From positions 124,001 through 188,000 of the forward strand of contig JAJVHY010000004.1 of NCBI GenBank assembly GCA_022072455.1: a stretch of DNA of 64,000 bases. The letters run 5' to 3'. Positions 15,321 to 20,292 of the stretch are shown piece after piece. The stretch comes from Verrucomicrobiia bacterium. GTDB taxonomy: Bacteria; Verrucomicrobiota; Verrucomicrobiia; Palsa-1439. The stretch's first letter is position 1, and each line of letters opens with the position of its first letter. The notes under the pieces are model-generated. The model saw only the letters and a program-made list of their open reading frames with translations. It did no database searches and was not told where the DNA came from. Position numbers and translations under genes: made by a program.

Positions 15321-15592
15321 TCAGGTCTGAAAGAATTCCTCCAGTCTCACAAAGACTTCTGGCGGCGCGTCGTGTTGTTTGACGGTCAACACGTCTTCGA
15401 GTTTTTCCAGTTGCCGGTGCAACTGACCAAGCCGGTCGTCAGCGGGCACACGCAACCAGATCCGACTCTGCGCGCAGTGCCGACCGGCAGGCAAAGGATG
15501 CCTTCGACATTGAACGCCCGGCGCGCGAATAACCCGCACACATGCGACATCACTCCCGGATGATTCTGCACCGTCAACTCAAGCGTGACCAT
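15321..15592 (-). pseudogene. ilvN: Acetolactate synthase small subunit, interrupted by a one-base frameshift
   Basis: The N-terminal 37 residues ([35 protein letters not shown]) match the short, single-ACT-domain IlvN of the E. coli AHAS I type almost exactly. The remainder ([38 protein letters not shown]) is in another frame. The switch lies in the GC-rich stretch near 15460-15475, and adding one base there restores a protein of the expected length (about 90 residues). The gene overlaps ilvB by 14 bp. This is either a sequencing or assembly error, a recent mutation, or programmed frameshifting; nothing else in the gene has decayed. Confidence 0.82.
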
Positions 15593-17237: not shown

Positions 17238-17303
17238 GTTGTCTTCTTCCTTTTTGCGGTTGTCCCGCGGCGAAGAACCGGCCAGTGGTGGGCGTTAAAA
17301 GCG

Positions 17304-17335
17304 CAACCCCCGCCGGCTCGCGCCGGCGGGGGTTG
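17304..17335 (-). terminator. Attenuator terminator hairpin in the ilvB leader
   Basis: AACCCCCGCCGGC (17305-17317) and GCCGGCGGGGGTT (17322-17334) are perfect complements around a 4-nt loop, extended by C17304:G17335 to 14 bp. On the minus strand the stem is followed by GCGCTTTTAACG, a short T4 tract. It lies between the leader-peptide stop and ilvB. The loop-side sequence 17316-17324 is exactly complementary to 17361-17369 inside the leader-peptide end, forming a competing antiterminator. Confidence 0.82.
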
Positions 17336-17356
17336 TTGAAATCTCTTTCAGTCCCG

Positions 17357-17437
17357 CTACGGCGCGAGCGACACGACGAGGACTACCAGGCCGACGAGGA
17401 CTTGGTGGACTGAGGTCGGGTTGTGTTTGCGCTGCAT
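17357..17437 (-). CDS. ilvB leader peptide (Val/Leu-rich attenuator peptide)
   Basis: 26 codons from ATG 17437 to TAG 17357, reading MQRKHNPTSVHQ and then VLVGLVVLVV followed by SLAP. Nine of ten consecutive codons are Val or Leu, the same design as the E. coli ilvB leader peptide IvbL (VVVV-rich, ending in AP). Ribosome stalling in the Val/Leu run would leave 17361-17369 free to pair with 17316-17324 and prevent the terminator; completion of the peptide would allow termination. No Shine-Dalgarno is seen and the best promoter places transcription start very close to the ATG, so translation may be leaderless, or the start may be an upstream in-frame ATG (17551). Confidence 0.75.
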   Translation of the reverse strand: MQRKHNPTSVHQVLVGLVVLVVSLAP

Positions 17438-17449
17438 AACGGTGGCGAA

Positions 17450-17478
17450 TGAATACGCGGAAGCGCCCCTGCTGTCAA
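17450..17478 (-). promoter_or_regulatory. Candidate sigma-70 promoter for the ilvB leader
   Basis: On the minus strand TTGACA (17478-17473) is a consensus -35. After 17 bp comes TATTCA (17455-17450), a weak -10. Start of transcription would fall near 17443, a few bases before the leader-peptide ATG. The region also has to hold the promoter of the divergent TPR-like gene at 17519. Confidence 0.45.
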
Positions 17479-17518
17479 GACTGGCGCGGCCGCGGTAAAC
17501 CGGGTAGAAGAAGGGCGC

Positions 17519-17881: not shown

Positions 17882-19255
17882 TCACAGGGCGACAGCGTTG
17901 ATGCCCGTTTGCTCGCAGAACGCAATGAGCTCGTCGTACAGACCGGCCCCGTAACCGAGGCAGGCGTACTCGTTGTTCCAAGCCTGGAGCAGTTTCTCAA
18001 TGTCACAATGCGCGGTGACAAACGCGTGCGGCCAGAACGGGATGCCGCACTCGTGCCGGCGTTTCTCCAACTCGGCGCGCGATGGTTCAAATACCGTGCA
18101 TCGGGCGAGCGCCATCTCGAACTGGCCGTTGACGCGTCCCAGCCGGGCCAACACGCCAGCACCGGGCTTGCAGACCAGTTCCACCGAGATGCCACCGGCT
18201 TCGCCTTCGGTCGGGATGCCGTGCTCGGCAAACTTGGCGGGCACGAGAGTGCCGGCCAGCGACGGCGGACACGCGCCATCCCCGATGATTTTGATTTCGT
18301 TGGTGGTTTTATCGATATGCTGGAGGTCGCCGTAGTAGACCGGCTCGGCGCTGAGGTCGGTGAGCAGTTTCACGGTCAGACAGGTGTTGAAGTCGCTCAA
18401 CGTGGAGGTGCCGATGTGGTCGTTGAGGATCAGGCTCTGCGCGAAACATGTCGCGCTGTAGTCGTCGCCAAGGCCGGGAAACGATTGCACCGTGTAGAAA
18501 TCCCAAGCCTCTTGCTTGAGGATCTGTTTGAACGCGAGGTACAGCCGGATCGACCGGTCGGCGGTGTCGCCAACCGGTAGTGGTTCGCTGAACAGCGGCT
18601 GAATCTTGCGCCGCGCCGCCGTCAACTCCGCCGGCGTGATCGCCTGCGCCGTCCGCAACAACGCGGTCGTGTCGCGCGAGTCAATATCAATGCCGAACTG
18701 CCGCATCCATTGCGACGGGTCCGCGACACCGCACGTCTGTCCCATCCCGCGCCCGCCGAACACGCCGCAAGTGCTCTGGTTGAGCCGCTGCTTCAGCGCG
18801 CTGGCCCGGCAATAGGCCGCGACCTTCGCCACTTCGCCGGTATCGCCATAAACGAACCGGTGCGACAATCCGATCTCCTTGCACGCGCCTTGCATCACAA
18901 GGCCGCCGACGGGCCGCCAGCCTTGCGAGCCGGGATGCGTCCAGAGCACAATGCCCTTGCCGGTACCGGCGAAGTCCCGAAGGGCACCGATCAAATGCGC
19001 CGCCCAAACCCACGTCCCGGAGAACAGCACCACGGCATCCACGTCATCCATCTTCTTAAATTTCGCAAAGCACTCACGCGCCTCGCTCTTCGACGCGATG
19101 ACCACCTCGTGCAGGACAAGTTGCAGACCGGCCTCGCGCAACGCCTTCTTCGCGCCGGCCACAATCTTGTCGTCAATGAACGGTGCGCCCAGCGGATCTT
19201 TCAGTCCGTCCTTGTGGACGCCATACACAATGAAGCCAACTTTGGGTTTGATCAT
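17882..19255 (-). CDS. L-fucose/L-arabinose isomerase-like protein
   Basis: 457 residues from ATG 19255. N-terminal KVGFIVYGVHKDGLKDPLGAP, VDAVVLFSGTWVWAAHLIGAL and GIVLWTHPGSQGWRPVGGLV resemble the substrate-binding domain of L-fucose isomerases. The metal-site region includes FPGLGDDYSATCFAQSLIL and a late FVTAHCDIEKLLQAW. Such enzymes convert an aldose to a ketose. The start overlaps the stop of the amidohydrolase gene by 4 bp, and both lie downstream of a GntR regulator, so a regulated catabolic operon for a deoxy- or rare sugar is likely. Confidence 0.8.
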   Translation of the reverse strand: MIKPKVGFIVYGVHKDGLKDPLGAPFIDDKIVAGAKKALREAGLQLVLHEVVIASKSEARECFAKFKKMDDVDAVVLFSGTWVWAAHLIGALRDFAGTGKGIVLWTHPGSQGWRPVGGLVMQGACKEIGLSHRFVYGDTGEVAKVAAYCRASALKQRLNQSTCGVFGGRGMGQTCGVADPSQWMRQFGIDIDSRDTTALLRTAQAITPAELTAARRKIQPLFSEPLPVGDTADRSIRLYLAFKQILKQEAWDFYTVQSFPGLGDDYSATCFAQSLILNDHIGTSTLSDFNTCLTVKLLTDLSAEPVYYGDLQHIDKTTNEIKIIGDGACPPSLAGTLVPAKFAEHGIPTEGEAGGISVELVCKPGAGVLARLGRVNGQFEMALARCTVFEPSRAELEKRRHECGIPFWPHAFVTAHCDIEKLLQAWNNEYACLGYGAGLYDELIAFCEQTGINAVAL

Positions 19256-20292
19256 AGATTCTCTTTCAGTTTGGGAATGAGCTTGCACGCGTTTTGGAAA
19301 TAGATCTTAGCCAACACATCCTTCGGCAGCCCGATGCCGTGGATGCGCCAGCGATATCGGCCGAACGTTCCGTCGTAATCAGGCGGGACGAAGTCCTCGT
19401 CATACGTCTCCAAAAACCGGAAGTAGCACCGGTACATCTCCCGCGTCGCCGGCATGTCGCTACCGAAATAGATCCGGTCCTGGTACCGAAGGAAGAACTC
19501 GCGCGCCCGGTACGGTTGGCGGCCAAGTTCATCAAGCCGGGCGGAGAAATCAATGAACGCGTTCGGGCATTCGTCAAGGAGCTGGCCGACGTAATCGAGA
19601 TTCTCCGGCCAATTGGCGACATGCGGCAGCAGGAATGTCGTCCGCGGATGCGATCGGATCAGGTTCCGGTAACGCCTTTGAAGTTCGGCGAAACTGGGAA
19701 ACTTCGGATCGGCGAAACTCCACGCCGGATATTTCTGAAGCGTGCCGGAGTGTTCATTTTCCGGCGTGACCGGCTGGAAGAAGCCGTAGGGATCGGCCTG
19801 ATGAATCAAGACCGGCACGCCGAGCTTGCCGGCTTCAGCCCAGATCGGCGCGAGCCGGTCATCGTCGCAGGCGATCAACTTTCCTGCTCCATCCCGGTAG
19901 TGCAGGCCAAGTTCTTTCAAGACCTTCAGGCCGCGCGCGCCGCGCTGGACGTGGTCGCGCAACGTGGCGCAACAGCGGGCGGCAAACGTGTCGTCAAACA
20001 CCGGCTGCGCAAACTCCGCCATCGTAAACCCGTAGAAGCGGCCGGGATGCTGGGCGGTGTTGGCGAAGAAGTTCTCGATCTTGCCGGCGCTGAGCAGGTA
20101 GCCGCCGCCCCCCCATTGAATGGTCACATTGGCGGTCAAGTCGCAGTAAGCGACGACACCAACTTCGTCCATGACCTGCACGACGTTGGCAAGTGTGTCC
20201 CATTTCGCCCACAGATGATTGTGCGCATCAATAACCGGCCAAGCAGCGCGAGCCGGGATGTTCTCAGGCCGCACGAGGTAGTTCGACGTCAT
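19252..20292 (-). CDS. Amidohydrolase-2 family metal-dependent hydrolase
   Basis: 346 residues. The metal-binding DAHNHLW motif near residue 22 gives the HxH pair. Further ligands are plausible in PVLIHQADPYG, FLLPHVANW and YFGSDMPATREMY (final Asp). The family includes sugar lactonases, decarboxylases and related enzymes, and a lactone hydrolase role would fit an operon with a sugar isomerase. The gene overlaps both neighbours by 4 bp (ATGA), so the operon reads gntR, hydrolase, isomerase with coupled translation. Confidence 0.85.
   Translation of the reverse strand: MTSNYLVRPENIPARAAWPVIDAHNHLWAKWDTLANVVQVMDEVGVVAYCDLTANVTIQWGGGGYLLSAGKIENFFANTAQHPGRFYGFTMAEFAQPVFDDTFAARCCATLRDHVQRGARGLKVLKELGLHYRDGAGKLIACDDDRLAPIWAEAGKLGVPVLIHQADPYGFFQPVTPENEHSGTLQKYPAWSFADPKFPSFAELQRRYRNLIRSHPRTTFLLPHVANWPENLDYVGQLLDECPNAFIDFSARLDELGRQPYRAREFFLRYQDRIYFGSDMPATREMYRCYFRFLETYDEDFVPPDYDGTFGRYRWRIHGIGLPKDVLAKIYFQNACKLIPKLKENL

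Follow-up and report, generated by a model that had tools for sequence, protein, structure and literature searches.

On the minus strand of the window (the whole stretch of 64,000 nucleotides analysed here, from a Verrucomicrobiia genome), direct reading from 17490 to 17280 gives a TTGACA, a TATTCA, a short leader reading frame, a hairpin and then ilvB, which is followed by a frameshift-split ilvN (Table 1). Both its NF006016 score and its position in the IlvB tree identify the gene behind the hairpin as an ilvB of the AHAS I type, and its product is 62–71% identical to enteric and betaproteobacterial IlvB. An earlier sequence-only reading had described a 26-codon Val/Leu leader, a 21-bp gap between its stop codon and a 14-bp hairpin, and ilvB behind it, all on the minus strand. 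This anatomy is correct to the base. The upstream neighbour on the same strand (17882-19288) weakly resembles sulfoquinovose isomerase (47.8 bits, cut-off 700).

Table 1. Features of the ilvB locus in the window (coordinates in window positions)
Feature	Position	Strand	Details
ilvB, AHAS I-type acetolactate synthase large subunit, 552 aa	15579..17237	-	ATG 17237; NCBIfam NF006016 (PRK08155), 950.8 bits, cut-off 870
ilvN, AHAS I-type small subunit, frameshift-split	15321..15592	-	two frames match IlvN; N-terminal part matches NF006036
Putative -35 element TTGACA	17473..17478	-	exact consensus
-10-like element TATTCA	17450..17455	-	17-nt spacer; weak match, 3 mismatches
Leader peptide ORF MQRKHNPTSVHQVLVGLVVLVVSLAP-stop, 26 codons	17357..17437	-	ATG 17437, stop 17359-17357
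Predicted regulatory Val/Leu codons VLVGLVVLVV	17372..17401	-	sequence and ribosome-position modelling
Putative terminator hairpin CAACCCCCGCCGGC-GCGA-GCCGGCGGGGGTTG, 14 bp, loop GCGA	17304..17335	-	dG -33.3 kcal/mol
CGC then T4 after stem	17297..17303	-	sequence; identical in nearest relative (G009)
Antiterminator 5' strand, segment 1 (GCTCGCGCCG, last sense codons of leader)	17360..17369	-	perfect 10-bp complement of 17316-17325
Antiterminator 5' strand, segment 2 (GCGGG, from last base of stop codon)	17353..17357	-	perfect complement of 17326-17330
Antiterminator 3' strand (CCCGCCGGCGCGAGC, hairpin 5' arm and loop)	17316..17330	-	pairs with 17353-17357 and 17360-17369

The leader carries a run of codons for the products of the pathway in a short reading frame, as expected of an attenuator of the ivbL class. 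Such a run hardly arises by chance in this region: when the 644-nt intergenic region was shuffled 5000 times with dinucleotides preserved, no ATG-started frame of 15–60 aa with at least nine V, L or I residues in ten arose, and eight in ten were reached in a single shuffle. The transcription start would lie at about 17443, some 6 nt 5' of the leader ATG, judging from the promoter-like elements. A strict promoter scan called no site upstream of the leader because the -10 element is weak, and it is solely the conserved distance to the leader ATG that makes the -35 element convincing. Specifically, in 15 of 18 class members a TTGACA with at most one mismatch, exact in 14 cases, occurs 34–50 nt 5' of the leader ATG, while the chance of finding it at such a distance is 3–12% per sequence. 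This conserved spacing suggests that the leaders are near-leaderless, with an estimated 5' UTR of 0–15 nt in the class. The sequence-only reading had regarded the closeness of the start to the leader ATG as its weak point; in view of the spacing in relatives it is better seen as a conserved design.

The hairpin was not listed by a strict terminator scan. On its 3' side it reads GGGGGTTG-CGC-TTTT (TTG-CGC-TTTT), and since CGC stands between the stem and the TTTT, the U-tract is interrupted. The four T residues reported earlier are thus present, though not directly after the stem. Most other relatives have proper T-runs after the hairpin, whereas in the window and its nearest relative the run is interrupted. 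The two pairings proposed between the leader end and the hairpin (17369-17361 with 17316-17324, and 17357-17353 with 17326-17330) are exact, and the first gains one more pair (17360 with 17325), so that the antiterminator comprises 10 + 5 bp with a 2-nt bulge (17359-17358) in between. At about -28 kcal/mol this antiterminator is thermodynamically less stable than the hairpin (-33), and therefore the switch must work during transcription. Folding of the region 17290-17480 gives z = -2.5. A candidate 'protector' hairpin joining the leader start to the antiterminator strand appeared in the fold without a ribosome of the window and the nearest relative only; the folds of the other relatives did not show it clearly, and it is not part of the proposed switch.

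Access to the two folds was modelled as a function of ribosome position, with the ribosome assumed to cover the RNA up to 12 nt past the first base of the A-site codon. With the A site on codons 9–18 of the window leader, 14 antiterminator pairs are free in the model at the point where the terminator's 3' arm has yet to be transcribed. The number drops to 13, 10 and 8 on codons 19, 20 and 21, respectively, and no pair is left at the stop codon. The course is similar in ten other species, Escherichia among them: most control codons leave 9–16 pairs, and the stop codon leaves at most a few weak ones. According to the model, waiting on Val or Leu codons would free the antiterminator and finishing the leader would block it. 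The suggestion that terminator and antiterminator are mutually exclusive is supported by the modelling, in which the antiterminator excludes the terminator and its access is set by the position of the ribosome.

We consider it highly probable (about 0.92) that 17304-17478 is a ribosome-mediated transcription attenuator of ilvB of the ivbL kind. RNA polymerase would start about 6 nt 5' of the Val/Leu-rich leader ORF. When Val-tRNA and Leu-tRNA are charged, the ribosome would reach the stop codon and cover 17360-17369 and 17353-17357; the hairpin 17335-17304 would then form and transcription would end before ilvB. Under shortage of Val or Leu the ribosome would wait on 17401-17372, the leader tail would pair with the 5' arm and loop of the hairpin, and transcription would proceed into ilvB. 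The start of transcription, the translation of the leader, termination and the response to amino acids are all predicted steps of this scheme.

The sequence-only reading had proposed that related genomes be compared, and this comparison speaks for the attenuator. The AHAS I-type ilvB is patchily distributed: 13 of 388 genomes sampled from the phylum have it, as do 18 of 384 sampled from the class and 2 of 11 in the family. In a sample of the Accumulibacter phylum, 10 of 399 genomes have a match at E < 1e-220. All 18 class AHAS I ilvB genes, i.e. that of the window and those of 17 related genomes, are preceded by a branched-chain-rich leader, a downstream hairpin and a matching antiterminator, the leader of the 17 relatives being Val-rich and at the same place. 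For three of these loci (L115, L116 and L120) the hairpin was placed by eye from the sequence, since automatic detection performed poorly there. Examples of the leaders are MESARHSTLVNVTRATLVGVVVVVLVRVGAP (nearest relative), MKFNLLVVLVKVVVVVVASNESARA and MTPFANNALANLVALVVVVVVVRCARREGRW. Leaders of the same kind are found at enteric and betaproteobacterial loci and in contigs from Myxococcales, Fibrobacteres, Treponema and Spirochaetes. The N-terminal halves of the leaders are dissimilar between families, whereas the branched-chain codons, the position and the RNA pairing persist. At one further locus (L036, Azospira) the leader frame continues beyond the usual place of the stop, with CAG where the others have TAG. 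The antiterminator strand is kept there, and thus the RNA pairing is conserved and the peptide end is not.

Between species, the two strands vary in step. In 23 representatives, pairing of the leader tail with the 5' arm and loop of its own hairpin has a mean energy of -19.1 kcal/mol, as compared to -14.9 for non-cognate combinations, and none of 20000 permutations was as good as the cognate set. The pair types vary widely by hairpin column, with G-C, U-A, A-U and G-U all present at +4 and five types at +9. Much of this variation falls in the terminator loop, which the terminator does not constrain, and the antiterminator pairing is kept nevertheless. The duplexes behind the per-column figures were each fitted separately, and therefore the permutation test serves as the control. 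A count in fixed columns is weaker: in six close relatives 89.7% of the antiterminator positions are paired, against 28–53% when the strands are slid, with a weak shuffle control (46/500). Six sequences are too few for fixed-column covariation to convince, which is why the cognate-swap test was used. A cross-family MAFFT alignment misplaced the betaproteobacterial row, and this alignment was left out of the counts.

Beside the ilvB attenuator, leuA of the same genome (L151, G000:C7:92682-94163) has such a switch too. Its leader, MKRNLNLLLVLLGLTLTGRTAG, is rich in Leu and has a TTGACG 39 nt 5' of its ATG; the 5' arm of its terminator, CCCACTGTCCGGATCGGACAGTGGGTTTT, pairs with the leader tail. 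Of ten other family members searched, nine have a Leu-rich leader and a hairpin ahead of leuA (no leader was listed for L165), and so do genomes from several further families of the class. In 16 sequences the cognate pairing is at -22.5 as compared to -17.8 for foreign combinations, with 0 of 20000 permutations as good. The leader is Val-rich at ilvB and Leu-rich at leuA, so that the control codon follows the pathway, as sensing by codon predicts. The trpE gene and the second ilvB of this genome have no Trp or branched-chain leader, respectively. The leuABCD attenuator of E. coli, with leuL, works like the Leu-rich leader found here. Unlike the E. coli one, the leuA leader here appears near-leaderless.

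Could the attenuator once have been functional and now be a relic in this genome? The ilvN gene is frameshifted after the LCLPVG motif and therefore the operon could be decaying, the U-tract is imperfect, and the genome has an ordinary second ilvB and a separate intact small-subunit gene (ilvH) elsewhere. We nevertheless find this improbable. The 15 bp of the window antiterminator are all perfect, the best among all relatives, and ilvB is intact and scores above its curated cut-off. Moreover, the interrupted U-tract recurs in the nearest relative, and that genome and several other class members keep the attenuator although no AHAS I ilvN turned up at these loci in a 1.5-kb range around ilvB. 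The ilvN frameshift itself may be an assembly error. Still less probable is that the leader is the gene of a short hydrophobic membrane peptide with its own terminator, the pairing with the hairpin arising incidentally from GC richness. In favour of this reading, the peptide is hydrophobic, and a GC-rich sequence could account for the antiterminator, taken alone, in one species. However, the N-terminal halves of the peptides differ between families while codons, position and pairing persist; leader tails swapped between species pair worse; and the leuA leader of the same genome has Leu in place of Val. A riboswitch or T-box is the least probable reading: although other bacteria control ilvB by ppGpp riboswitches or other RNA motifs (PMC10272879), no Rfam family at gathering score lies at the attenuator in the window, none lies upstream of ilvB at the loci of eight relatives at E up to 0.5 (sub-threshold chance matches occur elsewhere in two), and the entire signal lies within a short ORF with control codons.

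The attenuator reading accords with several known systems. The logic of E. coli ilvB, invoked earlier as a parallel, is more than an analogy: the gene passes NF006016, and ilvB genes of enteric bacteria and betaproteobacteria, with Val leaders of their own, are among its closest homologues. With ilvBN/IvbL of E. coli the window shares the orthologous AHAS I gene, a Val-run leader ending in -AP-stop, an antiterminator strand GCGCCGTAG..GGG that spans the stop and the codons just before it, and the core CCCCGCCGG of the putative terminator. It differs in that the leader here follows close behind the promoter (0–15 nt estimated), while enterics lack a TTGACA at that place. The rest of the leader peptide is also unlike, the terminator U-tract is interrupted in the window, and ilvN is frameshifted here or was not found beside ilvB in several relatives. 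The ilvBNC attenuator of Corynebacterium glutamicum likewise combines a leaderless leader ORF with branched-chain codons, a terminator and an antiterminator, its start site being 1 nt from the start codon (PMC11857589); its leader (a peptide of 15–17 aa) and RNA sequence differ, however, and it belongs to another phylum. Leaderless starts are also known from Sinorhizobium meliloti, in which the trpL RNA starts with its own ATG (PMC7298713). The ilvB-OMG, ilvB and ilvB-II RNA motifs have branched-chain-rich uORFs before ilvB as well (PMC10272879), but have no Rfam match upstream of ilvB here or in the eight relatives at the cut-offs given above.

A 2010 paper stated that no attenuators with leader peptides were known beyond Proteobacteria and Actinobacteria, except for a hisS case in Firmicutes that it reported itself (PMC2965389). 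Later, uORFs before ilvB were inferred in Corynebacterium, in Leptospira and in the ilvB-OMG motif (PMC10272879). Our search of a library of open-access papers found no report of such attenuators in Verrucomicrobiota. The mechanism is of a known kind; what appears unreported is the phylum, the near-leaderless design, the companion at leuA and the history across phyla. Amino-acid attenuation by leader peptides would thereby be extended to Verrucomicrobiota by two systems, a Val-rich one at ilvB and a Leu-rich one at leuA. Near-leaderless leaders also raise the question of how translation, lacking a ribosome-binding site, begins quickly enough to govern termination.

In the IlvB trees the proteobacterial AHAS I, which has the ivbL attenuator in E. 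coli, sits among verrucomicrobial sequences. Specifically, 12 of the 18 verrucomicrobial IlvB group with the proteobacterial rows on a branch supported at 99/99, and six fall outside it. A single clade of all 18 verrucomicrobial sequences is rejected (p-AU 0.0027), and a single proteobacterial clade is not (p-AU 0.346). The switch is conserved across phyla along with its gene, and the tree goes against the published model, which derives AHAS I from a duplication within the gammaproteobacteria (PMC5727371). The data favour transfer of AHAS I between phyla from a verrucomicrobial or unsampled donor, with the direction not settled because other phyla are thinly sampled. Tentatively, and with somewhat less than even odds, all this could be read together: AHAS I and its attenuator would be a mobile regulated unit with its main diversity in Verrucomicrobiota, ilvBN-ivbL of E. 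coli would be a late, horizontally acquired branch and not the product of a gammaproteobacterial duplication, and near-leaderless leader peptides at ilvB and leuA would be a general branched-chain control of the phylum. Four loci with more distant ilvB genes, from Treponema, Spirochaetes, Fibrobacteres and Myxococcales (L044, L047, L053 and L068), have Val-rich leaders too, and in three of them TTGAC lies 36–37 nt 5' of the leader ATG.
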